From the NCBI GenBank assembly GCA_963965975.1, contig OZ014411.1, positions 14,028,501-14,092,500 of the forward strand: DNA of 64,000 nucleotides. The letters are read 5' to 3'. This DNA is from Xestospongia bergquistia (lineage: Eukaryota; Porifera; Demospongiae; Haplosclerida; Petrosiidae). Each line of letters begins with the position of its first letter. Within the stretch, counting starts at the first letter, position 1. The notes beneath the pieces were generated by a model that saw only the letters and a list, made by a program, of their open reading frames with translations, did no database searches and was not told where the DNA came from. Made by a program: the position numbers and the translations under genes. Below, one piece after another: positions 7,034 to 46,230 of this stretch.

Positions 7034-10015
7034 ATGGCGATAATGTTAGCAGTGACTACGTTACAAGTTTTCCTTGTTCTCTTCCTTCCGTGGTCTGATG
7101 CTATCGATTATAGCTTTACATTTAAATTAACATCAGGTCAAGAACAATGTTTTTATGAACATGTAAAACAAGGAGCAACTATGGAGTTGGAATATCAGGT
7201 GCGCTTTAATTAGAAAGACTAACAATGCAGTTATTCTATTGCTAAAAGGATGCCATACTTTAATGGGAAATATAGTATATTCTAAGACTCCCACTGTTGA
7301 CTTTTGAACTGAAATGTGTTAATTTTGCGTTAAAGTATATATGGAATTCATTAGTGATCCATAGTTTAGTCATATTTGTCATTGTTCAATATTGTTACTA
7401 ATTACAATAGTACTAGTAGATTGATTTATTGAATTTGTATATATTTGATGGAGTTATTCCATAGATATTATATCCCATGTCTTTAAACATATTTAGTATC
7501 ATAGCTGGTAGTACTGAATAGATTATATTGTATGCACTAATGACCTCAATACTAGTGTATTGATTAGTTGTTAGTGCTTGTAAGTGGTTATTGAATTTAT
7601 AGTGTTTTTGGTTACTTTAATATTTAATGACCAAAATCATGGAGGACAAAAGATAGTTTAGATTAATCGAATGTATCTGACTAAATGTACATATAAAAAT
7701 TTAGTTTAGAATAGTCATTTAATTGAAACATACATAAGAAAATTAATATAGTTAGTATTTTCTAACATAAATAAAAGAATGAGAGTTAGAAAAACATGTT
7801 TTAATTGAGTTTAGTTGATATCTATTGTTCTGACTATTACTAACAAGGTAAAATGATGTGTAATAATGACATCATTAAAATTAATTTGTGTTGATCAATT
7901 TGATTCCATACAACTAGGCTAGTATAGATTACTTTGATAGTTAACTAACTATTACTATTTCTGTTAATTAGGTAATTGAAGGTGGAGAATTAGATGTTAA
8001 TTTTAGAGTAGGAGGTCCAAATAATGAGTTATTAGTTTCTGAGGATCGAAAGATGGATGGTCTTCATTCCTTTGAAATTACAACAACTGGTGATTATTCA
8101 ATATGTTTTGATAACACTTTCAGTCGTATATCTCAAAAACTTGTATTTCTGGATATCATTGTTGATCATGATGATTGTGAGTTGAATTTAACGTAGTCTG
8201 TTAATTGTTGGATTAATTCCTTATTGTATGTTATTCCTTATAACAGCTTAATGTAATGTACTGTCAAATGAAGTGTGTTTTGTAGTTTTGTACTCTAATA
8301 TACTGACAAAAAGCTAGGTCATCAACATGTCATGGGGTGTGGCGTTGTAACTTGATACATTCTATACAAGTTATAATGATCCCTTTTGTTTCTGATATAA
8401 TAATTTTGTCTTAAAAGATATTATCATTAGTGTTATAATATTTTCTGTTGCAGTTACAGAATGACACATCTGATAATTCATTAATAATATATTAACATTA
8501 TGTTCATGTACTTTGTACTTTATATTGGATTTCTATTAGACCACATTTCTACAAAGATATTGCTATAGTTTTGGGATAGATTAAGTATTATTGTAAGGGG
8601 CTATATGTAGGATACAAGAACTACATGTATGACACAAATCATTTTTCTCTTAGCCTAAACTAAAATTTCATGAAATTATTTTTAAACACACATAATTTGG
8701 CATATGTGCCATATATGATTTTACATAATAGGAAACTCCACCCCTAAACCTTCGTAAATCCTAAAGTTTAGATGTGTAATACACTAAAAGTATTATGCTG
8801 TGTGTTCCTTTTTATATTTTGTATAATGTTACAAGATACATTACCAGTAATGTTACATGGTACACTACCTGTAATGTTACATGGTACACTACCAGTAATG
8901 TTATACCAGTAATGTTACATGGTACACTACCTGTAATGTTACATGGTACACTACCTGTAATGTTACATGGTACACTACCTGTAATGTTACATGGTACACT
9001 ACCTGTAATGTTACATGGTACACTACCTGTAATGTTACATGGTACACTACCAGTAATTTTATATGGTACACTACCTGTAATGTTACATGGTACACTACCA
9101 GTAATGTTATACCAGTAATGTTACATGGTACACTATCTGTAATTTTACATGGTACACTACCTTTAATTTTTTTTATTGGTAAGCTACCTGTAATTTTGCC
9201 TAAAGTAATATTTATGGTATCATGTCTATATGTATTGTATTGAAAGATGAATGGTTATTGTATTCCTAAGTGGAAATCATGTTTTTGTTTAGACTATACT
9301 GTAGGGACAATGATGCTTTGTCCTTTTTTAATTAATATGTAATATTTTTTTTGTTCTTTATTTCTTGTAGATAACAATAATTTTGAAACAGATTTTGGTA
9401 CTAATACAATGTCTCCAGACGTTGTTGTCCTTGATATGAAGATGGAGGACTTAAGGGTAAAATTTATCTACTAGTTAATTTAAAGGGCATTAAAAAAAGT
9501 TTGTATGTGTGTTCTGTTTCCTTATAAATTCATAATAGGTTTTGTGTTCATATGTTGAAAGTGAAGATAATGTTTGTTATTGTAAGCATAATGTTTTGTT
9601 ATGACAAGACCTCTGATGCATATGATGGAAGCATGAGTTATATACTACATATGTGTCTAAACTGACATGGCTATATTATTGTTTTTGTATAAGATTGTTT
9701 TTCTTACAACATTGAAGGCAGTGTCTATGTACATATAACTCTATAATATTATATGTATAGTGTGACTGTGATAATGTCATTATTTTATAGGTTCTTCTTT
9801 CTAATGTTACCCATCATTTGAGTAAAGTGGTTGCTACACAACAGTTTTTCAGAGCACGTGAGGCAAGACATCGTTATACTTTAGAGAGCAATAATGCACG
9901 TGTCCTTTTTTGGTCAATAACATACTGTCTGGTTGTAATAACAGTGGGTGTGGTCCAAGTAGTAGTACTGAGAAATCTTTTTCGTACTCGACGTCAGGAC
10001 AAGATTACAACATGA
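7034..10015 (+). CDS. p24/TMED cargo receptor, four exons, 226 residues
   Basis: Exons 7034-7198, 7972-8176, 9371-9456 and 9791-10015 join into one open frame ending in TGA. The product has a signal peptide (1-23), then a GOLD domain with the conserved cysteine pair C39 (GQEQCFYEHV) and C100 (DYSICFDN). A coiled-coil stalk with the family motif R-x-R-E-A-R-H-R-Y-T-L-E-S-N-N-A-R-V follows at about 173-190. The membrane segment is about 191-212 and the short cytosolic tail is RNLFRTRRQDKITT. p24 proteins cycle between endoplasmic reticulum and Golgi and recruit cargo, including GPI-anchored proteins, to COPII/COPI vesicles. The usual FF of the tail appears as LF. Its last two exons were copied into each downstream array unit. 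An AATAAA at 10293-10298 may be the poly(A) signal. Confidence 0.93.
7235..7360. repeat. Diverged foldback related to the element at 55381-55513
   Basis: GATGCCATACTTTAATGGGA in TMED intron 1 resembles the left arm at 55381, and GCGTTAAAGTATATATGGAA about 90 bp later resembles the opposite arm. This is probably an old copy of the same foldback family. Confidence 0.35.
8829..9175. repeat. 24-bp minisatellite in TMED intron 2 (left edge of the array)
   Basis: About a dozen tandem copies of ACATGGTACACTACCTGTAATGTT-type units (24 bp, so open in several frames) with T/A and CTG/CAG variants. The same satellite recurs at 21908-22152 and 34828-35185, exactly where array units join. Confidence 0.93.
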
Positions 10016-10438
10016 AATGTGTTTGATACTTTATTTAATTTTGGTTCATGGCATCAATTTTTGTTTCATTTTTGGTTATGTAAAATTCATAGTTTGAAGA
10101 TTTTACTATCATGAGAATAATGATAAGAACAATGATATTTCTGAGGCAGAAGTATGAAGTACTAGCTAAATATCAATAATGTATTCATACAGGAACTATT
10201 TACACTAATTGATCACTGAATAGTAAATATGTCAGTTTATATAACCATACAGGCTCATGAGTATAAAGTAAATTCATAAATGTTACTGCATGAATAAACT
10301 TATGTTTGTATAATTAAGTATTGTATATTTATTAGAATGCACACCTGTGTAAAAGGACTATATATGGTGTATATATGTTTGTTTAGAAACAAGTTCCTTG
10401 AAATCACACCGTGTAGTTTAAATTGTACTCACTTATAG

Positions 10439-10537
10439 GTTGGGCTAACAGAAAGAATCCACCTGCTAAACTTGGAATGTGCCTTGTAAGCACTTGGTGA
10501 TTTCTTAAAGGCTACATATACACAAGAAAGTGTCCAG
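10439..10537 (+). promoter_or_regulatory. Conserved putative 5' UTR exon of the TRANK1-like gene
   Basis: A segment bounded by TATAG and CAG/GTAAGAG is conserved upstream of all three TRANK1-like copies and in the fourth remnant. A second mini-exon of about 13 nt (10753-10765) lies between TTTTAG and GTAAG. No plus-strand frame continues into the gene, so non-coding leader exons fit best. The minus strand is also open here, so an antisense gene is not excluded. Confidence 0.35.
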
Positions 10538-10801: not shown

Positions 10802-10830
10802 AGTACTACTGACTATGGATACAACTCCAG

Positions 10831-13800
10831 ATGAAACCATTAAAGTTAGTAAATATCCAATGACTAAACAATTTGATCTTACTTGTTTAATTAGAACATT
10901 TTGTATATTGCAAGATGTTGTAAAGAATGGGGTCTACTATTAAAACAATGGAATGTCAACAACATTGCTCAAAAATTATTGGAAGTGGCAATAACAAAGT
11001 TCTGTTTACGATACTCAGACTTTCCAGAATCTATAGTTGGCCAGAGAATGAATGCTCTCTTTGAAGCTATTGTTATTGCTGTTGAGTATGGTGAGTATAT
11101 TTACACTAAGTCACTGACTTATCATGTACTTTCTTTTATTTTAGAATGCACAGTCCTCCTCCCTGACATACTGGTACCTCAGAACATAGGGACTATTGCT
11201 GCTGAGCTGTCAGTAACTATGCTAACAGTTTTGCCTCATTTATCAAGTCAAGAAATAAAGGAAAAAATGCTTGAATATCTTCTTATTCAAGCTGAGTCTC
11301 CATTAAGTGGTCTTTTATCAAATTTCCCATCCTATGTACCAATTGAATGGTTATTTGATCAAAAGATATCTTCACCTGCAGTGTATAAATCTCTTCAGTG
11401 TCAAAGTGCTTTACATGCTACATCTGATCTGTTAAAAAAATTTATTATATCATTTCAAGATGAACATGTTGAAACATTTTTGATTTTATTTGAGTGTCGA
11501 CAGTCAGTGTCTTGTGAGACACTAGCCAAGTGTGCAGTTGAGAACAGTAAACCACAAATTGCATCTATCATTATGTGCAAACTGAAATCAGAAAAGTGTT
11601 ATGGCTTTTTGAACAAAGTAGTGAGGCAGTTTGATGATAAGCTAATGGCAACATTTGTGTTGAAATGTAGTCCAAAGATGAGAAGAGATTTGATCAAAAT
11701 TGTTCTTTTTTCTAATGAGGACTTTAAGAAGCGAAAAGATATCATAAATATTGTTCTAAAATCAGGTCCAATTGAAACAAATGATCCAATAGATTTTGTA
11801 GATGTTTTACGTCAATCTATGGAATTTCTTCTTTTTGATCCTAACATCTTAGAAACTTTGTTTAAAATTGGCTTTAGCTTTGGAAAATCTTCTAAAGGTT
11901 TGACAAAGTTGATTCTGAAGAAACGAGATCAACTAAAAAGACGTATTTCTATATTGTGTATTCTACTTGAGAATAAAGTAAATATTGATGACTTGTCCAT
12001 TGCCTATAGCTCTAATCAACCTGAGAAGCCAGGTACTCCACTTCATGCAGCCATAGAATTGGCTATTGAAACTGGTTAGTTAATTAGTTATAATAACTAT
12101 AAATTACTTCTAATTATTTTTGTAGGCAACACTCATATTGTATCCCTTGTTTGTAAGCTTCAAAATGATAATAGCTCAGTCTGTGATGCATTTGGTGCTT
12201 CCCCTCTTCATTTTATTGCCAAACAAAGTTTGAATAATTTCACTGTGGAAATATGTCGTATTATTTGTACAGAAACCAGCATTAACCCATTATTAAAAGA
12301 TAACAAGGGAAAAACTGCCTTAGATTACTGCTGTGGTCCAAATGATGAGCGAGTGCAAATTCTCAATGAGGCAGAGAAGTCTTATGATGTCGTAAACACT
12401 TCATTACCAATGTTGGATACAGTTCATTCATTAGTACAAAGTCCTGAAAATGTCCATGGTCATGAAAACAGTATTGAAATTGTAGCACAGGTTTGTACAA
12501 CAAGTGAACACAATACTAGTGATGCTGTTGCTACAAGAGACACTACCATTCATCTAGAAAGTGTACAGAAGTCTTTTTCATTGGAAGACTTACCTGATTT
12601 ACATAATCTCCTAGACTATATTTTAAGTCAAGATATTCTGTACTTCTCATTTAAAAAAAGACTTCATTTGTCTTTTAGCGATCATAATGATCAAGAAGAA
12701 GAAAACACTGTGTTAGATGACAGGGATACAGAAGTACCAGAAACCAACAAAGCAATTGCTGATCAATACGATGTCTTTTATTCACCACTAGCAAAAAAAT
12801 TTCTCCAGTCTGCTAATAAACTTGTTCCAAAAACTCTAAAAATTATTGAAAGGCTTGCATGTGGAGAGTCACCTCATAACTTGTCAAAAAAATTAGTGGG
12901 ACCAAAAGAAAGTATTTATGAAGCCAAACTTGATGAAGCCAAAAGAATTCTTTGGTGTAAAGTTATTGCATACTCTCCATCGAAGAAATGTCACTGCAGA
13001 GTTATCATCATTTTAGACATTGTTCTTGATCACAACAAAATTTCAAAAGCTGCTCAAAATGCTGATAAATGGATTCAACAAGGCAGAATAGAAGGAGGCA
13101 CTTATTCTGTGAAGCTTACAGCAAAAGGTTGTAAAGGAAGTCCATCCTACTACGAGCTTATTCCTGAAAACTTAGAAGATCCTAAAGCAAAAGAAGTACC
13201 ATATATGATGAGAGATGAATATGGAGCTGTTCCTATGTATTCGTTACCTGAATATGTATTAAAGAGTATACATCAAATGCCAAAAGAAGGTATTAAACGT
13301 TTTGGATTACCTCTTCGTCCATCTCATGAAGAACATGAAATAATTGATTTGCTTATTGAAGAAAACAACATCGTGAATATGTCATATCATGTAAAAACGC
13401 TATTAGTTGTTGGTAGAAGTGGAACTGGTAAGACCACATGTTGTCTTATGCGTCTTTGGGAGGAATTTTTACACTATTGGGAAATCGTTAATGATCACAA
13501 GCACCCAATTATTCCTCAAGTAATAATCACTTCTAAAGTACATCAAGAGATGGACCATAGTGAAGAAGCAAAACCATCTACACAGCCTGGGGGTGCAATT
13601 GAAGAACCAGTTTTATTACATGATAAATGCAGCAGAGATTCTGGAGTTGCCACCATTGCTTTAGAAGAGATAGTCCCTATAACTGAGTCCTCTAATGAGT
13701 TATGTAATCACATTCATCAAGTGTTTGTAACCAAGAATCCATATTTGACTCAAGAAGTAAAACGTAGATTCTATGATTTTGTGTCCGGTCATGACAAGTT

Positions 13801-16800
13801 GCAAGATCATTTGTCCTATGAGTCTAAACCACTCCCACTTTCCCTTAAAGATGTAGATGAACTTCATTATCCTCTTTTCATTACATCCAGAGAACTTCTC
13901 ATTTTAATTGATGGCACTTTAGATGGTGAGAAGTTTTTTCGAAGAAAGCAGGATGGCAAGTTAGTAGACAAAATTTACAACTCAGAGTTACCTTTTGATG
14001 ACATTGAATTTGGAGATGTGACATTTGAAGATGTAGATGATGAAGATGAAGATGATGATTATGACAGTGATTATAATGAGAATATTGAACGTGGTGATGA
14101 ACATCATGATGACACTGGTTATCAAATGATAGAAGTTACTTCATCTTACTTTAAAAAGGTCATTTGGCCTGTGATTTCAAAGGGAGATGACAAAGCCAAG
14201 TCAATCGATCCTATACTTGTTTGGCAGGAAATTAAGTCCTTCATCAAGGGTTCTGTGCAAGCATTGAAGTCAGAAGGTGGATATTTATCTCTGGTTGACT
14301 ACAAGAAGGTTGGAAAGAGCAAAGCACCAAATTTCTTTGAATGGAGGGAAATAATTTATGATCTTTTTCTCAAGTATCATAAGTATTGTCATTCACCAGT
14401 GCAGTCTGGGGAGAGATTATTTGATGAAGGTGATCTGTTATTTAATCTTCATAACCGTCTTGAAAATGGACCTGCATTCCCTTGGGTTGTTCATAATTTT
14501 TACATTGATGAAGTGCAAGATTTTACAGAAGCAGAGTTGTATCTTTTGCTTAGTTGCTCCCAGTGTCCAAATGGTAACTTTCTTTGTGGTGACTCTGCAC
14601 AAAGTATAATGCGAGGGGTTTCATTTAGGTTCACAGATGTCCGCTCTCTTTTTCATGAGCTCAAAACAAACATGAAAGTTGCTATTAACATTCCCAATGA
14701 GCCATATTATCTCACAATTAATTACAGGGCACATGCTGGAATTCTCAGAGTTTCTGACAGTGTAATTGAGCTTCTGGGACATTTCTTCAAAGAATCATTT
14801 GATGCTATATCTGAAAAATCTCGAACTTGTTATGGAGATAATGTTCAAAAGCCACTCATTGTATACTATGATGATCCTGAACAGTTGCCTTATATTTTGT
14901 CTGGACATCAACATAAGATGCGAGAAATTGAATTTGGAGCTCATCAAGCCATAATTGTACCATCAGAGGAAGTCAAGAAGAAATTACCCAAATCTCTACA
15001 GGGTGCAATAGTATTAACAGTGCTTGAAGCAAAAGGTCTTGAATTCAATGATGTGTTGTTATTCAACTTCTTTTCAGGTTCAAATGTAAGTAAAAGATTA
15101 TAACTAGATACTATACTGGCATTTCAAATAATTAATTACTCATAATCTAAATATTGTTAATTATTGTTAATTATTTTTTTCTTATAATAGGTTTCTCCAA
15201 AGAGCTGGGAACTAGTTAATGCATACACGTTTGTCGAAATTATGAATTCTTCTGAAAAAATAAGAAAAAAGTATGAGCATAATCTTCAAAGATTCAATGA
15301 AAGTGAAAACAAAGAGCTAAATACTGAATTAAAATATTTATATACTGCCATCACTCGAGCAAAACGAAATTTATGGATTTGTGATCAAGGCGGTTCAAGT
15401 AGTACTGACCAGATACATCCTATGTACAATTTCTGGTTGACCCAGTCTCTTGTCAAAGAAGTTACACTAGAAGACTCTGGTGAGTCATTTCAATCAACTG
15501 CTAGTACACCAGAAGATTGGAAGAAAGCAGGAGATTATCTTTTAGCTAAACATTTGTGGGAACAGGCTGAAAAATGTTACAGAAAAGCTAACTCAGATGC
15601 TCGTGTCAATGAAGTACATGCCTATGTTGAACTAGGCAAGAAAAATTATAAGGATGCAGCAAGATATTTTCTGATAGCTGATAAATGTGAACACGAAAGG
15701 AGACTACTAACTAAGACAGCTGTTTGCTTAAAGGCTGGAAAACTGTACTCTGAATCAGCACAACTATTTGAAAAGCTAGGGAGAGTAAGTTTTTCTATTA
15801 TGACTGACTACATGCATGACTTAACTTAGTAAGTCTTAGTACTTGACATAATCTGTATGTTTTCATTCAAAGTGTTTCTTTTGTTTTTTCACAGATCAAA
15901 CAAGCTAGTGATGCATATCTTCATGCAAAAGATGCTGAAAATTTCATTAGAGTCTGTGAATTAAAGCAAATGTACAGCCGGGTAATCAATGGATTGCGTT
16001 TTTGTGGGTACAAAATTAAAGCTTTAGAGAAAGCTGTGGAATATGGAGATAAGCTTAACTTGAGGGGCTTTCAAATCAATAAATTTGCTTATGAGTGTGT
16101 TAAACATTACACAACTTCTGGGGATAGAGATGCAGTAAAAGTAGCTGTTAACCATCTAGATGATAGCTTCCTTAAAATCAAGTATTTGGGATTAAATGGT
16201 TTCTATGAAGATATCTTACCCATACAAGTTGAGTTAAAGAATTATGAAGATGCATTTCTACTTGTTTTTCATCATGGGTTTTATAGACGTGGAATAGAAA
16301 TTGCAGGAGAATGTGGAAAGAGAAAGCAATTGTTTCAATTTTTGTTGTGTCAAATTTATGCTCAATTAAAACAAGAAGAATTCACTGATGACATAACAAA
16401 CACATTAACATTCATGCAGAATAACTGTAGTGACTTTCCATTTATATTAGCACAGACATTCTTGCTTCAAGGAAAGTTACATCATGATACTGCTGCATGT
16501 CTGAAAGCAAAAGAGCTATTTGAAAAATCACTACATGAAGAATTAAAAGTGGAATCTGGCTTGCTAGAAACAGTTAACACTCTTTTTGAAATAGGTGGTT
16601 ATGAAATGTCTCCAAATGAAGTGTTAGATTACTGTTTAATAGCAGTGAGATTATCAAAAGCTTTTGCCAAAACATCTCAGAATTTAACAGATAATGAAAA
16701 TAGCCAAATTAGCCAGTGCTTCCATTTAAATCAGATACAAAAATTAATTAATGGTCTTTATTTACTTCCACCTTACCAAGCTTATTGGCTTAAACATCCA

Positions 16801-18999
16801 TCATTTAAATTGTCCACAAAACTAACTGAAAAGGAATTATATATACATTGTGAAAAACACTTTTCTCAATATTGCACAGAATGGCTGGAATCCAGTGGAG
16901 CCATATCTAAAACATTGTCAAAGTTTATTCTTCATAAACAAGTGCTGCAACAAGGTTTAATTCCATGGAATGCACGGAATCGTTTTACTCATTATCTTGA
17001 GACACTTAGCATTATTGTAGAACTAAATGAGAGTCTAGGCTGTTATCCTGAATCTAGGGCAATTTTAGTTAATCTTTTCTCTCCACTGAGTGTCATTCAC
17101 AATCATGCCTGGAAGAAACATCATCTTCTTTCACTTCAAAACCTCACTGCTATTAATAACATGTTGAAGATGGAATGTACTAGTATGCTCCAGAACCCAG
17201 CAACAGTAGTGTCTCTTGATGAGTTGATGAAAATGTGGAGACTATGTTTGATAGCTTACAATAACACCAAAGCTTTATATGAACGGTTATCATCTTCATT
17301 TCAATCACCACATTTTGTGACTGGTATAAATAGTAGAAATCCGCGTCACATTTTTTACTATTGGATTAGATCTTGTGATGGAATTGCTTTTGAAGGTAGT
17401 GTCTTGAAAGCTATAGAAATGGTTTATAAGAAGATGCTTACATCAGTAGCCTTTTCAGAGGAAGTACGAGATACCATTTCTGATGATAATCTTCTGTATA
17501 TTGTTATTGTTCAGAGTACTGCCTTATTATATCTTGCTTCTCTTGCATGGAAGAAAATGTTCTTTATCCCTAAAATATTTAAGCATGTCATATTTACTTT
17601 TGATTTATTGAACAATCAAGGTAAATCTTTTTCCCTTATAAAGGCATGTGTAGAAGAAGCTCAACAGAATAAAATTGATTTATCTAGATTAGGTCGCTAT
17701 GCTTTACATCTTTTACAGCAAATTTTAAATTTTTTACTTGGGCAACTTAACAGTGATTGTAATATTTTGGATCGGGCAGTAAACAATGAGAATGAAATAG
17801 TATCAATGTATTACATTGTTTTAATCTTAACAGCAACTGCAAACCTTTACATAGCTAGACCTAACATGGAAAATGAGCCTGTTCACAAATGTTTGGTTTT
17901 GTTACAAACCAAAATGGACAGTTTACAGAGACATACAAGAAAACCAAATTACGCCAACTATGTCTATAGTACACTCAGTTCAATTTCACATGTTCCACAA
18001 TTGTTTGTAATGTCACGCACATTATTGGAAAGAGTGAAAAACTCAGAAATGTGCCAAATTTTTCCATCTCATGATTTGAACTATTTGAATGTTCAGCAAC
18101 TTGACGATGTACGCATATTGCCAAACATTCCATTGAAACCAGTACAAGTGGATTATAGTTTGTTTAAAATGTCTCAAATTGTATTAAAGAAGAAGAAAGA
18201 AGGAGAACAAGAAGGAAAAGTGGAAAGAGGAGGACATCTAGAAAAAGAAGGACAAGGAGAAGAAGACAAAAAGGATGAAAATGAAGGACATGCAAGAGGA
18301 AGAGAAGCAGAAGATGAACCACAAGGAGGTGGACATGAAGAAGAAGAAGAAGAAGAAGAGGAAGAAACAGTTGTATATCCTCCACAAATTAATGAAGGAA
18401 ATGACATTCTAGTGAAATTGAAAGAGAACAAGATTGAAAACAATTTCTGTTGGATATGTAAAGTTAGTATTTCAAGCAAAATAAGTGGAAAAGCTGAGAC
18501 ACAAACTGCTCAAGGTGATTTTGAACGGCAAGATAGCAGCAATGAAAGCGAATATGATAATCACATCAATAGTTCAGAACACAAAGAAAAAAGAGATCAA
18601 TATGAACGCTTCAAGAAACGTGAACAAATATGTTCTAATCTCAAATGGAAGGCAGTAAATTTGATTGAAGATTTAAAAAAGCTGCCCTCATTGTCACCTG
18701 ATGATGATAGTCTAATAACAGCCTGTGAGATACAATTAACCACTCTACATCAAGAGGTTGATTCTATAGTCACAAGTGGGTTTACTTGGCTTAAAATGTC
18801 GATAAAGTTGACTTATCAATGTCAAAAATTTAACGAAGTTTTTCAGAAGTTACGAGGAATTACTAGCAGTCAAGATGAAAGAGAAGAAACATTTGATCTA
18901 CCTGAAATGGAAGATTTCACTGAAGAAGAATACGCATACATTGATGAAATTCTTCCTGATACCAAACTAAGAAAAAAACAGAGAAACAAAAACAAGTAG
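10831..18999 (+). CDS. TRANK1-like: TRANK1-like giant protein, copy 1 (intact): ankyrin, SF1 helicase core, TPR
   Basis: Proposed exons: 10831-10848, 10895-11090, 11145-12074, 12126-15085, 15191-15784, 15895-18999, together 2601 codons including the stop. The start is uncertain: the ATG at 10831 keeps frame through a 46-nt intron, while an ATG at 10815 does not. Domains: helical N-terminal region (1-360); ankyrin repeats about 366-445 (GTPLHAAIELA, GASPLHFIAKQ, GKTALDYC); a RelE/ParE-like segment about 599-703; Walker A GRSGTGKTT near 808; an acidic linker near 1018; DEVQD near 1174; GDSAQS near 1202; NYRAH near 1247; AKGLEFNDV near 1350; YTAITRAKRNLWI near 1418. TPR-like helices follow from about 1478 and an acidic Glu-rich stretch at about 2328-2391. 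The motif order is that of UvrD/Rep superfamily 1 helicases. Function of the animal family is poorly known. A likely poly(A) signal is at about 19036. Confidence 0.9.
11091..11144 (+). other. 54-nt stopless intron in TRANK1-like copy 1
   Basis: GTGAGT...TTTTAG, length divisible by three and without stop codons, so retention would add 18 residues. The matching introns of copies 2 and 3 are 52 nt and would shift frame if retained. Confidence 0.7.
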
Positions 19000-21907: not shown

Positions 21908-22152
21908 ATTGATAGTGTACACTACCTGTACTTTTAGATGGTACACTACCTGTAAATATATATGGTACACTACCTGTACTTTGACATGGTACACTACCTG
22001 TAATGTTACACGGTACACTACCTGTAATGTTACATGGTACACTACCAGTAATGTTACGTGGTACACTACCTGTAATGTTACATGGTACACTACCTATAAT
22101 TTTACATGGTACACTACCTTTAATTTTTTTATATGGTGAGGTACCTGTAATT
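21908..22152. repeat. 24-bp minisatellite at the unit 1/unit 2 junction
   Basis: About ten units of the GGTACACTACCTGTAATGTT family, with more variants (TTTAGATGG, AAATATATATGG) toward the left end. Confidence 0.92.
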
Positions 22153-23786: not shown

Positions 23787-23815
23787 AGCACTACTGACTA
23801 TGAATACAACATCAG

Positions 23816-29800: not shown

Positions 29801-31915
29801 GAATGGCTGGAATCCAGTGAAGCCATATCTAAAACATTGTCAAAGTTTATTCTTCATAAACAAGTGCTGCAACAAGGTTTAATTCCATGGAGTGCACGGA
29901 AGCGTTTTACTCATTATCTTGAGACACTTAGCATTATTGTAGAACTAAATGAGAGTCTAGGCTGTTATCCTGAATCTAGGGCAATTTTAGTTAATCTTTT
30001 CTCTCCACTGAGTGTCATTCACAATCATGCTTGGAAGAAACATCATCTTCTTTCACTTCAAAATCTGACTGCTATTAATGACATGTTGAAGATGGAATGT
30101 ACTAGTATGCTCCAGAATCCAGCAACAGTAGTGTCTCTTGATGAGTTGATGAAACTGTGGAGACTATGTTTGATAGCTTACAGCAACACCAAAGCTTTAT
30201 ATGCACGACTATCATCTTCATTTCCATCACCACATTTTGTGACTGGTATAAATAGTAGAAATCCACGTCACATTTTTTACTATTGGATTAGATCTTGTGA
30301 TGGAATTGCTTTTGAAGGTAATGTCTTGAAAGCTATAGAAATGGTTTATAAGAAGATGCTTACATCAGTAGCCTTTTCAGAGAAAGTACGAGATACTATT
30401 TCTGATGATAATCTTCTGTATATTGTTATTGTTCAGAGTACTGCCTTATTATATCTTGCTTCTCTTGCATGGAAGAAAATGTTCTTTATCCCTAAAATAT
30501 TTATACATGTCATATTCACTTTTGATTTATTGAACAATCAAGGTAAACCTTTTTCTCTTATAAAGGCATGTGTAGAAGAAGCTCAACAGAATAAAATTGA
30601 TTTATCTAGATTAGGTCGCTATGCTTTACATCTTTTACAGCAAATTTTGAATTTTTTACTTGGGCAACTTAACAGTGATTGTAAGATTTTGGATCGGGCA
30701 GTAAACAATGATAATGAAATAGTATCAATGTATTACATTGTTTTAATCTTAACAGCAACTGCAAACCTTTACATAGCTAGACCTAACCTTGAAAACGAGC
30801 CTGTTCACAAATGTTTGGTTTTGTTACAAACCAAAATGGACAGTTTACAGAGACATACAAGAAAACCAAATTACGTCAACTATGTCTATGGTACACTCAC
30901 TTCAATTTCACATGTTCCACAATTGTTTGTAATGTCACGCACATTATTGGAAAGAGTGAAAAACTCAGAAATGTGCCAAATTTTTCCATCTCATGATTTG
31001 AACTATTTGTATGTTCAACAACTTGACGATGTACGCATGTTGCCAAACATTCCATTAAAACCAGTACAAGTGGATTATAATTTGTTTAAAACATCTCAAA
31101 TTGTATTAATGGAGAAGAAAGAAGGAGAACAAGAAGGAAAAGTGGAAAGAGGAGAACATCTAGAAAAAGAAGGACAAAGAGAAGAAGACAAAAAGGATGA
31201 AAATGAAGGACATGCAAGAGGAAGAGAAGCAGAAGATGAACCACAAGAAGGTGGACATGAAGAAGAAGAAGAAGACGAAGAAACAGTTGTATATCCTCCA
31301 CAAATTAATGAAGGAAATGACATTCTAGTGAAATTGAAAGAGAACAAGATTGAAAACAATTTCTGTTGGATATGTAAAGTTAGTATTTCAAGCAAAATAA
31401 GTGGAAAGGCTGAGACACAAACTGCTCAAAGTGATTTTGAACGGCAAGATAGCAGCAATGAAAGCGAATATGATAATCACATCAATAGTTCAGAACACAA
31501 AGAAAAAAGAGATCAATATGAACGCTTCAAGAAACGTGAACAAATATGTTCTAATCTCAAATGGAAGGCAGTAAATTTGATTGAAGATTTAAAAAAGCTG
31601 CCCTCACTGTCACCTGATGATGATAGTCTAATAACAGCCTGTGAGATACAATTAACCACTCTACATCAAGAGGTTGATTCTATAGTCACAAGTGGGTTTA
31701 CTTGGCTTAAAATGTCGATAAAGTTGACTTATCAATGTCAAAAATTTAACGAAGTTTTTCAGAAGTTACGAGGAATTACTAGCAGTCAAGATGAAAGAGA
31801 AGAAACATTTGATCTACCTGAAATGGAAGATTTCACTGAAGAAGAATACGCATACATTGATGAAATTCTTCCTGATACCAAACTAAGAAAAAAACAGAGA
31901 AACAAAAACAAGTAG
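23816..31915 (+). pseudogene. TRANK1-like: TRANK1-like copy 2, two compensating frame lesions with a stop between
   Basis: Collinear exons: 23816-23833, 23880-24075, 24128-24994, 25051-28007, 28113-28706, 28817-31915. All splice sites are kept. An A-run of five (25578-25582) replaces seven in copy 1, which creates a stop at 25599-25601. A lost C near 25750 then restores the frame, so about 170 nt are out of frame and the rest (RelE-like segment, Walker A, DEVQD, motif VI, TPR, tail) is open and nearly identical to copy 1. Exon 3 is 63 nt shorter than in copy 1. It is either a very young pseudogene, two separate products (about 540 and 2000 residues), or an assembly error in a homopolymer. Confidence 0.75.
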
Positions 31916-34827: not shown

Positions 34828-35185
34828 TAGTGTACACTACCTGTACTTTTACATGGTACACTACCTGTAAATATATATGGTACACTACCTGTACTTTGAC
34901 ATGGTACACTACCTGTACTTTGACATGGTACACTACCAGTAATGTTATATGGTACACTACCTGTAATGTTACATGGTACACTACCAGTAATGTTATATGG
35001 TACACTACCTGTAATGTTACATGGTACACTACCAGTAATTTTACATGGTACACTACCAGTAATTTTATATGGTACACTACCTGTAATGTTACATGGTACA
35101 CTACCTGTAATGTTACATGGTACTTTACCTGTAATTTTACATGGTACACTACCTTTAATTTTTTTTATTGGTAAGCTACCTGTAA
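34828..35185. repeat. 24-bp minisatellite at the unit 2/unit 3 junction
   Basis: About fourteen units of the same satellite as at 8829 and 21908, with alternating ACATGG/ATATGG and CTG/CAG variants. Confidence 0.92.
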
Positions 35186-35362: not shown

Positions 35363-36008
35363 AGAACAATGATTTTGAAACAGATTTTGGTATAATACAA
35401 TGTCTCCAGACACTGTTGTCCTTGATATGAAGTTGGAGGACTTAAGGGTAAAATTTATCTACTAGTTAATTTAAAGGGCATTAAAAAAGTTTGTATATGT
35501 GTTCTGTTTCCTTATAAATTTATAATAGGTTTTGTGTTCATATGTTGAAAGTGAAGATAATGTTTGTTGTTGTAAACTAATGTTTTGTTACAACAAGACC
35601 TCTGATGCATATGAAGGAAGCATGAGTTATATACTACATATGTGTCTAAACTGACATGACTATATTATTGTTTCTGTATAAGATTGTTTTTCTTACAATA
35701 TTGAAGGCAGTGTCTATGTACATATAACTCTATATGTATAGTGTGACTGTGATAATGTCATTATTTTATAGGTTCTACTTTCTAATGTTACCCATCATTT
35801 GAGTAAAGTGGCTGCTACACAACAGTTTTTCAGAGCACGTGAGGCAAGACATCGTTATACTTTAGAGAGGAATAACTCACGTGTCCTTTTTTTGGTCAAT
35901 AACATATTGTCTGGTTGTAATAACTGTGGGTGTGGTCCAAGTAGTAGTACTGAGAAGTCTTTTTCGTACTCGACGTCAGGACAAGATTACAACATGAAAT
36001 GTGTTTGA
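35363..36008 (+). pseudogene. TMED exons 3-4, unit 3 copy, frameshifted
   Basis: Exon 3 (35363-35447) shares the 1-nt loss with the unit 2 copy. Exon 4 (from 35772) has seven instead of six T after GTGTCC (about 35885), so the membrane segment is lost and the frame ends at 36008. Confidence 0.85.
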
Positions 36009-36802: not shown

Positions 36803-36808
36803 CACGTG
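36803..36808. promoter_or_regulatory. CACGTG E-box before TRANK1-like copy 3
   Basis: Conserved GTCACGTGA, 30 bp upstream of the ATG at 36838. Confidence 0.35.
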
Positions 36809-36837
36809 AGCACTACTGACTATGGATACAACATCAG

Positions 36838-39800
36838 ATGAAACCATTAAAGTTAGTAACTGTCCAGAGAATAAACAATTTGATCTTACTTGTTTATTTA
36901 ATTAGAACATTTTGTATATTGCAAGATGTTGTAAAGAATGGGGTCTACTATTGAAACAATGGAATATCAATAACTTTGCTCAAAAATTATTGGAAGAGGC
37001 AGTGACAAAGTTCTGTTTACTATACTCATACTTTCCAGACGCTTTAGTTGGCAAAAGAATAAATGCTCTCATTGAAGCTATTGATGTTGCTGTTAAGTAT
37101 GGTGAGTTATTTTGGATTTCCAACCACATCACAATGCTATTTATTTATTCTAGAATGCACTTTTCTTCTTCCTGTAATATCTCCGGGTGTCACAGCTGAA
37201 CTGTTGGTAACTGTGTTAACAGTTTTCCCATATCTATACACAAAAGAGAAAGTGCTACAGTATCTTATTACTAAAGTTCAGTCTCCATTAGAGTTACTAT
37301 GTGATCAGAAAGTATCTTCGCCTGCTGTATACAGAGTTCTTCTTTGCAAGACTGGTTTACATACTACATCTGATTTGTTGAAAAAATTTATTATATCATT
37401 TGAAGATGAACATATCGAAACATTTTTGATTTTATTTAAATGTGGACAGTCAGTATCTTGTGAGACACTGGTCAAGTTTGCAGTTGAGAACAGTAAACCA
37501 CAAATTGCATCTATCATTATGTGCAAACTGAAATCACAAAAGTGTTACGACTTTTTGAAGAAAGTAGTGAAGCAGTTTGATGATAAGCTAATGGCAACAT
37601 TTGTGTTGAAATGTAGTCCAAAGATGAGAAGAGATTTGATCAAAATTGTTCTTTTTTCTACTGAGAACTTCAAGAAGCGAAAAGATATCATAAGCATGGT
37701 TTTAAAATCAGGTCCAATTGATACAGATGATCCAATAGATTTTGTAGATGTTTTACGTCAATCTATGGAATTTCTTCTTTCTGACCTGAACATTTTAGAA
37801 ACTTTGTTTAAAATCGGCTTTAGCTTTGGAAAATCTTCTAAAGGTTTGACAAAGTTGATTCTGAAGAAACGAGATCGACTAGAAAAACGTATTTCTATAT
37901 TGTGTATTCTACTTGAGAATAAAGTAGATATTGATGACTTGTCTATTGCTTATAGCTCTAATCAACCTGATAAACCAGGTACTCCACTTCATGCAGCCAT
38001 AGAATTGGCTGTTGAAACTGGTTAGTTTAATTAGTTACAATAACAATAAATTACTTCTAATTATTTTTGTAGGCAACACTTATATTGTATCCCTTGTTTG
38101 TAAGCTTCAAAATGATAATAGCTCAGTTTGTGATGCATCAGGTGCTTCCCCTCTTCATTTTATTGCCAAACAAAGTTTGAATAATGTCACTGTGGAAGTA
38201 TGTCGTATTATTTGTACAGAAACCAGCATTAACCCATTATTAAAAGATAACAAGGGAAAAACTGCTCTAGATTACTGCTGTGGCCCAAATGATGAGCGAA
38301 TGCAAATTCTCAAGGAGGCAGAGAAGTCTTATGATGTCGTAAACACTTCATTACCAATGTTGAATGCAGTTCATTCATTAGTACAAAGTCCTGAAAGTAT
38401 CCATGGTCATGAAAACAGTACTGAAATTGTAGCACAGGTTTGTACAGCAAGTGAACACAATACTAGTGATGCTGTAGCTACAAGAGACACTAACATTCAT
38501 CTAGAAAGTGTACAGAAGTCTTATTCACTTGAAGACTTACCTGATCTCCTAGTCTATATTTTAAGTCAAGATAGTCTGTACTTCTCATTTAAAAAAGACT
38601 TCATTTGTCTTTTAGCGATCATAATGATCAAGAAGAAGAAAACACTGTGTTAGATGACAGGGATACAGAAGTACCAGAAACCAACAAAGCAATTGCTGAT
38701 CAATACGATGTCTTTTATTCACCGCTAGCAAAAAAATTTCTCCAGTCTGCTAATAAACTTGTTCCAAAAACTCTAAAAATTATTGAAAGGCTTGCATGTG
38801 GAGAGTCACCTCATAACTTGTCAAAAAAATTAGTGGGACCAAAAGAAAGTATTTATGAAGCCAAACTTGATGAAGCCAAAAGAATTCTTTGGTGTAAAGT
38901 TATTGCATACTCTCCATTGAAGAAATGTCACTGCAGAGTTATCATCATTTTAGACATTGTTCTTGATCACGACAAAATTTCAAAAGCTGCTCAAAATGCT
39001 GACAAATGGATTCAACAAGGCAGAATAGAAGGAGGCACTTATTCTGTGAAGCTTACAGCAAAAGGTTGTAAAGGAAGCCCATCCTACTACGAGTTTATTC
39101 CTGAAAACTTAGAAGATCCTAAAGCAAAAGAAGTACCATATATGATGAGAGATGAATATGGAGCTGTTCCTATGTATTCCTTACCTGAATATGTATTAAA
39201 GAGTATACATCAAATGCCAAAAGAAGGTATTAAACGTTTTGGATTACCCCTTCGTCCATCTCATGAAGAACATGAAATAATTGATTTGCTTATTGAAGAA
39301 AAAAACATCGTGAATATGTCATATCATGTAAAAACTCTATTAGTTGTTGGTAGAAGTGGAACTGGTAAAACCACATGTTGTCTTATGCGTCTTTGGGAGG
39401 AGTTCCTACACTATTGGGAAATCGTTAATGATCACAAGCACCCAATTATTCCTCAAGTAACAATCACTTCTAAAGTGCATCAAGAGACGGACCATAGTGA
39501 GGAAGCAAAACCATCTACACAGCCTGGGGCTGCAATTGAAGAACCAGTTTTATTACAAGATAAATGCAGCAGAGATTCTGGAGTTGCCACCATTGCTTTA
39601 GAAGAGATAGTCCCTATAACTGAGTCCTCTAATGAAGTATGTAATCACATTCATCAAGTGTTTGTAACCAAGAATCCATATTTGACTCAAGAAGTAAAAC
39701 GTAGATTCTATGATTTTGTGTCTGGTCATGACAAGTTGCAAGATCATTTGTCCTATGAGTCTAAACCACTCCCACTTTCCCTTAAAGATGTGGATGAACT

Positions 39801-42800
39801 TCACTATCCTCTTTTCCTTACATCCAGAGAACTTCTCATTTTAATTGATGGCACTTTAGATGGTGAGAAGTTTTTTCGTAGAAAGCAGGATGGCAAGTTA
39901 GTAGACAAAATTTACAACTCAGAGTTACCTTTTGATGACATTGAATTTGGAGATGTGACATTTGAAGATGTAGATGATGAAGATGAAGATGATGATTATG
40001 ACAATGATTATAATGAGAATATTGAACATGGTGATGAACATCGTGATGACACCGGTTATCAAATGATAGAAGTTACTTCATCTTACTTTAAAAAGGTCAT
40101 TTGGCCTGTGATTTCAAAGGGAGATGACAAAGCCAAGTCAATCGATCCTATACTTGTTTGGCAGGAAATTAAGTCCTTCATCAAGGGGTCTGTGCAAGCA
40201 TTGAAGTCAGAAGGTGGATATTTATCTCTGGTTGACTACAAGAAGGTTGGAAAGAGCAAAGCACCAAATTTCTTTGAATGGAGGGAAATAATTTATGATC
40301 TTTTTCTCAAGTATCATAAGTATTGTCATTCACCAGTGCAGTCTGGGGAGAGATTATTTGATGAAGGTGATCTGTTATTTAATCTTCATAACCGTCTTGA
40401 AAATGAACCTGCATTCCCTTGGGTAGTACATAATTTTTACATCGATGAAGTACAAGATTTTACAGAAGCAGAGTTGTATCATTTGCTTAGTTGCTCCCAG
40501 TGTCCAAATGGTAACTTTCTTTGTGGTGACTCTGCACAAAGTATAATGCGAGGGGTTTCATTTAGGTTTACAGATGTCCGCTCTCTTTTTCATGAGCTCA
40601 AAACGAACTTAAAAGTTGCTATTAACATTCCCAATGAGCCATATTATCTCACAATTAATTACAGGGCACATGCTGGAATTCTCAGAGTTTCTGACAGTGT
40701 AATTGAGCTTCTTAGACGTTTCTTCCAAGAATCATTTGATGCTATACCTGAAATATCACGAACTTGTTATGGAGATAATGTTCAAAAGCCATTCATTGTA
40801 TACTATGATGATCCTGAACAGTTGCCATATATTTTGTCTGGACATCAACATAAAATGCGAGAAATTGATTTTGGAGCTCATCAAGCCATAATTGTACCAT
40901 CAGAGGAAGTCAAGAAGAAATTACCCAAATCTCTACAGGGTGCAATAGTATTAACAGTGCTTGAAGCAAAAGGTCTTGAATTCAATGATGTATTGTTGTT
41001 CAACTTCTTTTCAGGTTCAAATGTAAGTAAAAGATTATAACTAGATACTACTGGCATTTCAAATAATAATTACACATAATCTAAGCATTTTTAATTACTT
41101 TTCTTTATAATAGGTTTCCCAAAAGAGCTGGGAACTAGTAAACGCTTACACATGTGTAGAAGTCACAAATTCTCTTGAGAAAAAAAGACCAAAATATGAG
41201 CACGATCTCAAAAAATTCGATGAAGTTCAACATAAAAGTCTCAATACTGATTTAAAATATTTATATACTGCCATCACTCGAGCAAAACGAAATTTATGGA
41301 TCTGTGATCAAGGCAGTTCAAGTAGTACTGACCAGATACGTCCTATGTACAATTTCTGGTTGACTAAGTCTCTTGTCAAAGAAGTTACACTAGAAGACTC
41401 TGGTGAGTCATTTCAATCAACTGCTAGTACACCAGAAGATTGGAAGAAAGCAGGAGATTATCTTTTAGCTAAACATTTATGAGAACAGGCTGAAAAATGT
41501 TACAGAAAAGCCAACTCAGAAGCTCGTGTCAATGAAGTGCATGCCTATGTTGAACTAGTCAAGAAAAATTATAAGGAGGCAGCAAAATATTTTCTGATAG
41601 CTGATAAATGTGAGCATGAAAGAAGACTACTAACTAAGACAGCTCGTTGCTTAAAGGCTGGAAAACTGTACTCTGAATCAGCACAACTATTTGAAAAGCT
41701 AGGCAAAGTAAGTTTTTCTATTATGACTGACTACATTCATGACATAACTTAGCAAGTCTTAGTACTTGACATAGTCTGTATGTTTTCATTCATAGTCTTT
41801 CTTTTGTTTTTTCACAGATCAAACAAGCTAGTGATGCATATCTACATGCAAAAGATCCTGAAAATTTCATTAGAGTCTGTGAATTAAAGCAAATGTACAG
41901 CCGGGTAATCAATGGGTTACGTTTTTGTGGGTACAAAATTAAAGCTTTAGAGAAAGCTGTGGAATATGGAGATAAGCTTAACTTGAGGGGCTTTCAAATC
42001 AATAAATTTGCTTATGAGTGTGTTAAACATTACACAACTTCTGGGGATAGAGATGCAGTAAAAGTAGCTGTTAACCATCTAGATGATAGCTTCCTTAAAA
42101 TCAAGTATTTGGGATTAAATGGTTTCTATGAAGATATTTTACCCATACAAGTTGAATTAAAGAATTATGAGGATGCATTTCTACTTGTTTTTCATCATGG
42201 GTTTTATAGACGTGGAATAGAAATTGCAGAAGAATGTGGAAAGAAAAAGCAACTGTTTCAATTTTGTTGTGTCAAATTTATGCTCAATTAAAACAAGAAG
42301 AATTCACTGATGATATAATGAGTACATTGACAACTATGCAGAATAATTGTTATGATTTTCTATTTATAGTAGCCCAGACATTTTTGCTTCAGGGAAAGGT
42401 CTATCAAGATGCTCAAGCATGCCGAAAAGCAAAGGAACTATTTCAAGAATTATTGGATAAAAAACTAAAAGTAGAATCTGGTTTACTAGAGACTGTTAAT
42501 ATTCTTCTGAAAATGGAAGACTGTAAAATATCTCCAAATGAAGTGTTAGCGTACTGCTTAAAGGCGTTGCGATTGTCTAGAGCATTTTGCAAAAAATCTC
42601 AAGATTTGACAGATGACGAGAATAGCCAGATCAGTTATTGTTTTAAGTTAAATCAAGTGCAAAAGCTAATTAATGGTCGCTATTTAATTCCACCTTACCA
42701 GGGTTATTGGCTTGAGCTTCCATCATCTGAAGTCTTCATTGAGCTGAATGAAGAAGAATTGTATGCTCATTGTGAAAAGCATTTCTCGCAATATTGTATG

Positions 42801-44869
42801 GAATGGTTGCAATCCAGTCGAGCCATAGCTAAATCTTTGTCAGAGTTCAGGCTTCATGAGAAAGTTCTGCAACAAGGTTTAATTCCACGGAGTGGGCAAA
42901 TACCTTTTACTGAGTATCTCCAGACACTTAGTGTTATTGTAGAATTAAATGAATTTTTGAATTGTTACCCAGATTCCAGGAAAATTTTAGTTAATCTTTT
43001 CTCTCCACTGAGTGTCATTCACAATCATGCTTGGAACAAACATCATCTTCTTTCACTTCAAAATCTCACTGCTATTAATTATATGTTGAAGATGGAATGT
43101 ACTAGTATGCTCCAGAATCCAGCAACAATAGTGTCTCTGGACAATTTGATAAAAACATGGAGACTATGTTTGATAGCTTACAGTAACACCAAAATGTTAT
43201 ATGAACAACTATCATCTTCACTTCAATCACCACATTTTGTGACTAGTATAAATAGCAGAAACCAACGACACATTTTTTTCTATTGGATTAGATCTTGCAA
43301 TGGAATTGCTTTTGAAGGTAATGTCTTGAAAGCTATAGAAATGGTTTATAAGAAGATGCTTACATCAGTAGCCTTTTCAGAGGAAGTACGAGATACCATT
43401 TCTGATGATAATCTTCTGTATATTGTTATTGTTCAGAGTACTGCCTTATTATATCTTGCTTCTCTTGCATGGAAGAAACAATTCTTTATCCCTAAAATAT
43501 TTAAGCATGTTATATTTACTTTTGATTTATTGAACAATCAAGGTAAATCTTTTTCCCTTATAAAGGCATGTGTAGAAGAAGCTCAACAGAATAAAAGTGA
43601 TTTATCTAGATTAGGTCGCTATGCTTTACATCTTTTACAGCAAATTTTGAATTTTTACTTGGGCAACTTAACAGTGGTTGTAATATTTTGGATCGGGCAG
43701 TAAACAGTGATAATGAAATAGTATCAAGGTACTACATTGTTTTAATCTTAACAGCAACTGCAAACCTTTACATAGCTAGACCTAACCTTGAAAATGAGCC
43801 TGTTCACAAATGTTTGGTTTTGTTACAAACCAAAATGGACAGTTTACAGAGTCTTACAAGAAAGCCAAATTATGCCAACTATGTCTATAGTACACTTACT
43901 TCAATTTCACATGTTCCACAATTGTTTGTAATGTCACGCACATTATTGGAAAAAATGAAAAACTCAGAAATGTGCCAAATTTTTCCATCTCATGATTTGA
44001 ACTATTTGTATGTTCAGCAACTTGACGATGTACCCATGTTGCCAAACATTCCATTGAAACCAGTACAAGTAGATTATAATTTGTTTAAAACATCTCAAAT
44101 TGTATTAAAGAAGGAAAAAGGAGAGCAAGAAGGAAAAGTTGAAAGAGAAGAACAAGGAGAAGACAAAAAGGATGAAAAGAAAGGAGATGAGCCACAAGGA
44201 GGTGGACATGAAGAAGAAGAAGAGGAAGAAGAAGAGGAGGAAGCAGTTGCATATCCTCCACAATTTAATGAAGGAAATGACATACTAGTCAAATTGAAAG
44301 AAAACAAGATTGAAAACAATTTCTGTAGGATATGTAAAGTTAGTATTTCAAGCAAAATAAGTGGAAAATCTGAGACACAAGCTGCTCAAGGTGACTTTGA
44401 ACGGCAAGATAGCAGCAATGAAAGTGAATATGATAATCACATCAATAGTTCAGATCACAAAGAAAAAAGACATCACTATGAAGACTACAAGAAAAGTCAA
44501 CAAAAATGTACTGATCTCAAATTGAAGGCAGTAAATTTGATTGAAGGTTTGAAAAAGCTGCCATCATTGTCACCTAATGACGATAGTACAATCACAGCCT
44601 GTGAATTACAATTAGCAACTATACATCAAGAGGTTGATATAATTGTCACAAGTGGATTTACTTGGGATAAAATGTCAACAGATTTGACTTATCAATGTGA
44701 AATGTTTGAAAAAATTGTTCAGAAATTACAAGGGATTACTAGCTGTCAAGATGAAAGAAAAGATAGACTTGATCTACCTGAAATGGGAGATTTGACAGAA
44801 GAAGAAGACATTGATGAAATTCTTCCTGATACCACGCTAAGAAAAAAGCAAAGAAACAAAAACAAGTAG
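36838..44869 (+). pseudogene. TRANK1-like: TRANK1-like copy 3, four disabling lesions, mosaic divergence
   Basis: Exons: 36838-36855, 36906-37101, 37154-38020, 38073-41022, 41114-41707, 41818-44869. Lesions: six A instead of seven at 38591-38596 (frame lost, stop at 38651-38653); TTG TGG changed to TTA TGA (stop 41480-41482) in the TPR region; one T lost at 42262-42265; one T lost at 43652-43656. Walker A, DEVQD and motif VI remain readable. Most of the gene is nearly identical to copies 1-2, but about 41140-41260, 42300-42980 and 44100-44870 are clearly diverged. Unless these are sequencing errors it is a pseudogene. Confidence 0.85.
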
Positions 44870-45699
44870 ATATTGTATTCATTAGTTAGTAGAGTATAAA
44901 CTTTAATAAATTGAATAATTCATATTTTTATATTTCATACAAATTTTATATATAGCTGGTTTATACAATTTACTTCCAATTTTTCTGTCTAAGATAGTCA
45001 AGATGTTATTAATTATTATTTTGCCTCCTTATTTTGATTTTAACACAACAACAACAACAACAGCTGCAAACCACTATGTAACTAGATAATCTAACCTTTG
45101 AAAGTGACAATTAGCCATTCCATTACATATGTTTTATTTGTTACATAAGAAAGACATAATGTGACAAAAATATAAATTATTCTACTATGTCTCGGTATTA
45201 TGTACTTGATGTTCTTTGATTATTTTAATTGCACAGAACTTACTGCTAATAACAAGGAAATATTTTAAATTTGTCCTTTTTTTGAAATTTGATTTATCTA
45301 ATAAAAATAGAATACTTATGATATCATGTCAATGTAAGGATGAGTGGCTGTTGTTTGCTTTGGAGGTGCAACTTATCTATTAGTCAAATGTTTATTAAGG
45401 GGTGGGCACTAATGATGGGCTTGTGCCTTGTGATAATTGTTCATGAATAAATTAAAATTTTTGGCTCGCATGTTGAAAGTTAAGATAATGTATTGTTTAT
45501 TTTGTAAGACATCGTCCTCATTTTGTATATGAAGGAAGAATGAAAAATTTAATTTTTATACTATATTATGTGTCCATATACCAGTATGTGTGTGTATACA
45601 GTTGTTTCTAAGACTATTTTTAAGGCAGTGTACATGTAATCCTATAACATTACATATGGTTACAAGTATAATATTACGAATACATGAATTCTATAATAT

Positions 45700-46230
45700 T
45701 ACATGTACATGTAATATATTGTGGTCATTGTATAGTTTCAACTTGCTAGAGTTACCCATAATTGAAATAAAATAGCTGTAATAATAGTAAATTTTCAGAG
45801 CACGTGAGACAAGATATCATTGAGCAATTGATAAGTGAATAAGAAATATGTAAGTTTATATCAATATGCAGTCTTATGAGTATAAGCTGAATTCATGTAT
45901 GTGTTTATAGCATGCTATATTTACTATAACACACATCTTTGTAAAATAATTATGGTTTATATGCATGTTTGTTAAGAAAACAAGTTCCTTAAAAAAACAC
46001 CATGTAGTCTGCATTATATCGTGATGTATAGGTTGGACTAAGAGATAGAATGCAATGTTTCTGAAATGTATAATACATGGAATGAGCCCTGTAAGCACTT
46101 GATAATTTCTTGAAGGAAGCGTATACCCAATATATATAGTATCCAAGTAAGAGAGAATTTTAGCATCAAGAAACTACTTGTACTAACTAGTATGTCTTTG
46201 GAGCATTAAACAACACAAGAAGCTAACAAT
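45700..46230 (+). pseudogene. Remnant of a fourth array unit (TMED exon 4 and leader region)
   Basis: GAGTTACCCATAATTGA and TTTTCAGAGCACGTGAGACA match TMED exon 4. Next come TTATGAGTATAAGCTGAATT and the leader-exon block with GGTTGGACTAAGAG and CCAAGTAAGAGAGAAT. Homology ends just before where a TRANK1-like start would lie. The exon is truncated and non-coding. Confidence 0.65.

Follow-up and report, generated by a model that had tools for sequence, protein, structure and literature searches.

The IFIT, IFITM and defensin families are birth-and-death clusters that are also shaped by gene conversion, and in prokaryotes the Gabija system pairs the UvrD helicase GajB with the nuclease GajA. TRANK1, another protein with a UvrD-type core, is not known to have an assigned biochemical role. 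In published work, TRANK1 is tabulated among interferon-stimulated genes (PMC6880163), belongs to an interferon-beta signature (PMC12231911), is up in virus-positive cells of the chicken (PMC10269786), was measured alongside interferon-response genes in goat cells (PMC12989410), has a transcript in a co-expression module with SAMD9 and DTX3L in the mollusc Aplysia (PMC8195618) and is described as a bipolar-disorder risk gene (PMC8724122). No title on a TRANK1-like tandem array or expansion was found in the small share of matching papers covered, which is a weak negative. Here we describe a tandem array of TRANK1-like giant helicase genes in a 64,000-nucleotide stretch of the sponge Xestospongia bergquistia (contig OZ014411.1, in the following C1, positions 14028501-14092500 of the forward strand). 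This whole stretch is referred to as the window, coordinates without prefix count from its first letter, and the genome searched comprised 146 Mb in 21 contigs.

The locus is probably an older TRANK1-like tandem array, gene-converted and under purifying selection, in which copies 2 and 3 carry breaks that are either young or confined to the haplotype or assembly at hand. The array, its passenger tails, the mosaic of identity, the constraint on the copies and, as assembled, their lesions are all observed. Self-BLAST of the window showed three units of ~13 kb, arranged head-to-tail and starting at 8824, 21917 and 34832. Within each unit, a minisatellite is followed by the final exon of a TMED/p24 gene and then by a six-exon helicase gene of the UvrD type (superfamily 1, SF1) and of the TRANK1 kind. 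The segment 11352-21587 is 97.3% identical to 24272-34500, while 21917-32422 and 34952-45365 share 92.4% and 11352-18236 and 37298-44154 share 93.2% identity. An earlier note on this DNA had proposed a tandem array of TRANK1-like giant helicase genes with copies in differing states, and the three collinear units bear this out. The elements of the units are as follows:

6989..10012, + strand: TMED/p24 (GOLD) gene, its last exon (9791-10012) inside unit 1 (Pfam, by eye)
8824..9167, no strand: minisatellite with a 24-base period, 5' edge of unit 1; it lies between the second TMED exon recognised and the last one (TRF, self-BLAST)
10815..18999, + strand: copy 1, TRANK1-like helicase gene of 2604 amino acids, open (gene model from four-way alignment)
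21917..22127, no strand: minisatellite with a 24-base period, 5' edge of unit 2 (TRF)
22746..22967, + strand: passenger TMED last exon of unit 2, open (protein 98.6% identical to that of 9791-10012)
23800..31915, + strand: copy 2, with the six exons of copy 1 and two frameshifts in its exon 4, product of 547 amino acids from the ATG (alignment, translation)
34832..35162, no strand: minisatellite with a 24-base period, 5' edge of unit 3 (TRF)
35772..35994, + strand: passenger TMED last exon of unit 3, frameshifted (its T run has one base more than those of units 1 and 2)
36822..44869, + strand: copy 3, same six exons and splice dinucleotides, product of 557 amino acids from the ATG (alignment, translation)

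The TMED assignment is based on the exon open reading frames 7972-8193 and 9791-10012, which match PF01105 (EMP24_GP25L) at 56 and 62 bits (cut-off 25.9); a first exon within the frame 6989-7210 was read by eye from the translation only. Upstream TMED exons are present only ahead of unit 1, in 6989-8193. As every unit starts at the minisatellite beside the TMED last exon, the TMED tail appears to have been carried as a passenger in each duplication.

The six-exon model of the helicase gene is backed by a four-way alignment of copies 1 to 3 and L011, a related gene elsewhere on C1. In copy 1 the exons lie at 10815-10844, 10895-11090, 11145-12074, 12126-15085, 15191-15784 and 15895-18999, the introns are of the GT-AG type with 50-110 bases, and 2604 codons are read without a stop. 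Copies 1 to 3 and L011 all conserve the start codon, the stop codon and the dinucleotide pairs of the five introns. The model was checked separately on L011, whose aligned exons gave 1755 open codons from the ATG. Thus copy 1 is fully open, as had been claimed, but over six exons rather than as a single open reading frame.

In the case of copy 2, the lesions are two non-triplet deletions in exon 4, after the positions corresponding to 12652 and 12826 of copy 1: two bases lost from an A run and one base from a CC pair. The earlier count of two lesions is thus right, as is that of none for copy 1. Together they add up to a triplet; a stop between them nevertheless ends the ATG frame at 547 codons, and a second open frame of 1857 codons follows downstream. 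An intron hiding these lesions was considered and discarded, as none was evident by eye in the alignment, no splice-site program being used. In the case of copy 3, the four lesions expected from the earlier note were recovered: three single-base deletions (one in exon 4 and two in exon 6; one in an A run, two in T runs) and one nonsense codon in exon 5 (TGG to TGA at 41480). Its ATG frame ends after 557 codons. All five frameshifts of copies 2 and 3 are therefore losses of one or two bases in single-base runs, one of these runs being only two bases long. This points to slippage or consensus error.

The frameshifts might thus simply be assembly errors, which would leave copies 2 and 3 as working genes except for the nonsense codon of copy 3. 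This is possible but rather unlikely. It would explain why five of five frameshifts fall in single-base runs when the share among non-coding indels, whatever their length, is 4 of 15 for the pair 1-2, 7 of 20 for 1-3 and 5 of 14 for 2-3, and it would agree with copies 2 and 3 being constrained like copy 1. However, copy 1 showed no frameshift, nor did the core and C-terminal exons inspected in L011, L013, L014 and, up to the end of the fetched stretch, L012, so that errors would need to cluster in copies 2 and 3. The nonsense codon of copy 3 and the two of L011, which has zero frameshifts in these frames, are in-frame substitutions, and a change in run length is also seen as a gain, namely in the TMED tail of unit 3.

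To describe selection, private changes were counted over 1837 of 2604 codons, after removal of mosaic blocks and gapped codons and leaving out sites with three different bases. They were assigned within the unrooted trio, each change being taken as lying on the branch of its own copy. The resulting ratios of nonsynonymous to synonymous divergence (omega, or dN/dS; bootstrap 95% intervals in brackets) for copies 1, 2 and 3 were 0.35 (0.23-0.53), 0.37 (0.24-0.56) and 0.46 (0.31-0.69), respectively. A count that also left out codons gapped in L011 gave 0.36, 0.36 and 0.44, and 0.20, 0.20 and 0.31 for the helicase core. Neutrality was rejected in each copy, for the full count as well as the core (p 5e-6 to 9e-4). 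This speaks against the possibility raised earlier that all copies evolve neutrally.

Non-triplet indels in exons gave a similar picture. Only 2, 3 and 4 were observed for the pairs 1-2, 1-3 and 2-3, compared to 25.1, 77.2 and 52.0 expected from the non-coding rate of the units, a set that includes the TMED tail exon; the mosaic blocks were kept in. Such indels are thus more than ten-fold rarer than the non-coding rate predicts. Constraint and scarce frameshifts together indicate that the copies kept their function through most of the time since they separated, and that the breaks are either young or confined to the sequenced haplotype or assembly. The slightly higher omega of copy 3 would fit a slightly earlier break, its interval overlapping with the others.

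These counts bear on the idea that copies 2 and 3 are established pseudogenes, the array being in plain decay around one live gene. Six lesions across two copies and products that end at 547 and 557 amino acids are what would be expected then, but neutral private changes are rejected for precisely these copies (p ~1e-5 and 5e-5), and non-triplet indels stay far under the neutral expectation. We therefore consider plain decay doubtful. In the same way, the earlier picture of copies at different stages of life and death holds in so far as the lesions exist as assembled, but copies 2 and 3 are nearly as constrained as copy 1 and none of them looks long dead.

Identity among the copies bears on the age of the array. 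Stretches with ~3% divergence adjoin blocks with a synonymous divergence (dS) of 0.55-0.72. Between copies 1 and 2, steps of 200 alignment columns showed 93-100% identity outside three steps in 10886-11486, with 90, 66 and 80%; over the second and third of these, L011 is 91-97% identical to copies 2 and 3. Copy 3 differs from both other copies (74-84% identity) between position 16350 of copy 1 and ~17150, where L011 is nearer to it (86-90%). Two mosaic blocks were delimited:

11090..11480, + strand: mosaic block of copy 1 at the start of exon 3 (dS, counted over 11000-11480, of 0.57 to copy 2 and 0.55 to copy 3)
42273..43172, + strand: mosaic block of copy 3 in exon 6, corresponding to 16351-17250 of copy 1 (mostly 74-84% identical to copies 1 and 2, and 84-90% to L011)

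The 787 informative sites in 9258-19000 divide into 433 of pattern 12, 234 of pattern 23 and 120 of pattern 13, and they are strongly clustered, forming 252 runs where 5000 shuffles averaged 462 and never fell below 415. Similar patchiness reaches beyond the array: copy 2 and L011 differ by a dS of 0.10 in one block and of 0.97 in the block next to it, and L013 and L014 by 0.21, 0.06 and 0.53 over three segments. A DNA search for the donor of the N-terminal block of copy 1 yielded five matches, all of them to copy 1 itself or, at 70-81% identity, to parts of copies 2 and 3. We attribute the mosaic pattern to gene conversion or unequal exchange within and between clusters.

Patchy identity together with old divergent blocks implies an older array homogenised by gene conversion and not simply a fresh amplification. 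The earlier note had read the near-identity of the copies as recent amplification; the ~97% stretches agree with this, but identity is patchy and the divergent blocks are old. Regarding the blocks themselves, diversifying selection was considered and, on average, rejected: dN/dS comes to 0.32-0.33 when copy 1 is compared with 2 and 3 over the N-terminal block, and to 0.21-0.22 when copy 3 is compared with 1 and 2 over the C-terminal one, as expected on average for old constrained sequence and not for hot spots of positive selection. Omega was below 1 in every block tested (block averages 0.10-0.79), averages beneath which single positively selected sites may still lie.

The mosaic also bears on a false duplication, in which two haplotypes would have been assembled end to end. 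Copies 1 and 2 are 97% alike, which is inside the heterozygosity range of some marine animals. Against this, there are three units with private lesions, blocks of 66-80% identity lie beside blocks of 97-100%, patterns 12, 13 and 23 are all present in clustered blocks, and a second cluster is organised alike. We regard an artefact of this type as very improbable.

This second cluster lies at ~C1:14203000-14246000 (L018-L022), ~0.14-0.17 Mb downstream, where the 5' flank of the units is matched at four places. It holds L011 with its two nonsense codons, L013 and L014, which are open in the exons inspected, and three fragments, and it is older than the window array. A TMED exon is recognisable at three of the four flank sites, with 3, 3 and 9 stops in the matched stretch (1 TAG and 2 TAA; 1 TAG and 2 TAA; 2 TGA, 4 TAG and 3 TAA). 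No TMED tail was found near the single gene L012 (24.28 Mb) among 8 genome matches. TMED tails in both clusters are most simply explained by one ancestral unit of TMED tail plus helicase. By eye, copia-like retroelement reading frames were seen between L014 and L013, and in L021/L022 a long Ser/Thr-rich, repeat-like open frame was seen upstream of and within the core frame of L013, with a shorter one in L014.

A genome census with the core of copy 1 gave 10 candidates and 9 matches, and with the core of L012 13 candidates and 13 matches, such counts being lower bounds. There are seven near-full loci (copies 1-3, L011, L013, L014 and L012) and relics at at least five places (14.92 Mb; 19.47 Mb, weaker, with E values of 1.6e-5 and 3.4e-4; and the three fragments of the second cluster), all on C1. 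The open frames of L012, L013 and L014 were inspected in core and C-terminal exons, L012 running past the fetched stretch. Intact, broken and relic copies as well as mosaic blocks are all present, as assembled, in line with birth-and-death evolution with gene conversion. The rapid birth and death suggested earlier thus gains support as turnover, which may have been rapid.

The earlier note had also counted a fourth, truncated unit. A piece of a further unit is indeed found:

45826-46208, + strand: decayed, non-coding 5' piece of a further unit, ~67% identical (alignment scores versus shuffles)

It matches the 5' flank of the units (10207-10611 of copy 1) at 171-183 bits, depending on the unit, whereas 300 dinucleotide shuffles of 45366-46500 reached no more than 46.8 bits. 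In 45367-45821 similarity is weaker (81-95 bits), with parts matching the TMED-tail region of the units and parts matching the 3' flanks of copies 1 and 2. With five pieces of copy 1, tblastn found no helicase exon in the window after 44866, and none in 45366-49000 at E values up to 1. The claim therefore stands for a piece of 5' flank only, and the fourth unit is an old relic rather than a recent truncation.

Taking these observations together, the array would have grown by unequal exchange, the TMED tail riding along as a passenger each time and the minisatellite at the unit edge possibly driving the exchange. Exchange among the copies and with the second cluster would keep the helicase core alike, while the N- and C-terminal arms retain older blocks that have diverged. 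For the greater part of their history, purifying selection would have acted on all copies; copies 2 and 3 would presumably have been broken only recently, or only in the sequenced haplotype or assembly.

Several points weigh against this history and against the family assignment behind it. Per block, from 18.7 kb to the unit end, copies 1 and 2 are ~97-100% alike, as would be expected if this part was duplicated or exchanged recently. A broken copy can also acquire a signature resembling purifying selection through conversion by a functional one. The driving role of the minisatellite is inferred from its position, and copy number, lesions and expression depend on a single assembly. At the protein level, the Pfam matches of copy 1 to ankyrin, AAA and UvrD families are below the curated cut-offs (Ank_2 24.5 bits, cut-off 27.3), copy 1 is absent from the four genome matches to PF00580, and a TPR match in its exon 6 was not found with Pfam.

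Regarding the family, copies 1-3 contain GRSGTGKTT, DEVQDFTEAE, GDSAQSI, TINYRAHAG, TVLEAKGLEF and YTAITRAKRNLW in this order, corresponding to the SF1 motifs I, II, III, IV, V and VI. The core of L012 is 40% identical to that of copy 1 and matches PF00580 at 41.6 bits (cut-off 23); TPR_2 in L012 scores 23.9 bits, below its cut-off of 27. Among Protein Data Bank (PDB) chains, copy 1 had one weak match (E value 0.76), and profile A1 had four weak matches to helicase IV and PRP43 (DNA helicase IV at 22.5 bits). From these motifs the protein is expected to be an ATP-driven nucleic-acid translocase with scaffold arms. Because vertebrate TRANK1 is interferon-stimulated, a response to nucleic acids or viruses in innate defence may be likelier than any other single role, so that the immune-type reading of the earlier note is a tentative lead. 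It is highly unlikely, though conceivable, that broken copies would serve as a reservoir of N- and C-terminal arm blocks, moved by gene conversion into the live gene while the core stays uniform, with the recognition arms of a helicase that senses nucleic acids being diversified in this way at an innate immune locus of an invertebrate.

Outside the array, the window carries a GH18 chitinase-like gene with one open exon at 1329-2498 (- strand; PF00704, 99.2 bits), with a possible relic of it, seen by eye and with no Pfam match, at 3236-3403. A tetraspanin-like exon lies at 5005-5455 (+ strand), its part 5005-5202 having a sub-threshold Pfam score of 22.3 bits (cut-off 32.1) and 5276-5455 being an apparent continuation by eye. 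An exon at 54712-54909 (- strand) matches Bles03 (PF08939, 33.7 bits, cut-off 23.1), and 48871-49708 and 57652-58504 form a repeat pair of 90% identity by self-BLAST.

In comparison with known systems, the genes described here would share with vertebrate TRANK1 the giant protein with a UvrD-type core and a long C-terminal arm, and perhaps an ankyrin-like N-terminal arm; the motif order and a C-terminal cysteine/histidine element presumably agree with human TRANK1 as well. In contrast to TRANK1, they form a multi-copy family in two clusters with converted blocks, the ankyrin score of copy 1 being below cut-off and no TPR signal having been found in it. With bacterial SF1 helicases of the UvrD/Rep/HelD type, including GajB of Gabija, they share the helicase core, a likeness at superfamily level. 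PADLOC matches to GajB were weak (best 39.5 bits for L013, 22.9 for copy 1), probably since PADLOC holds defence proteins only and a UvrD helicase matches by default. Scans with profile A1 for prokaryotic and viral relatives, with two short peptide patterns each, gave 145 pattern-matching stretches in viral contigs and 105 in genome contigs, of which tblastn confirmed none, a weak negative. Membership in Gabija was rejected in view of the multi-exon eukaryotic gene, the weak matches and no confirmed prokaryotic or viral relative, no dedicated search for GajA being made.

Overall, this multi-copy TRANK1-like family, with passenger TMED tails as a yardstick, is a place to study selection on the helicase versus its arms, and it illustrates that frame-breaking lesions in a near-identical array can be mistaken for old pseudogenes. 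The array is a good example of gene-family turnover and not a new kind of system: like the IFIT, IFITM and defensin clusters it has tandem copies, pseudogene-like members and mosaic exchange, but it differs from them in that average omega is below 1 in all blocks tested, diversifying selection not being apparent in the averages.

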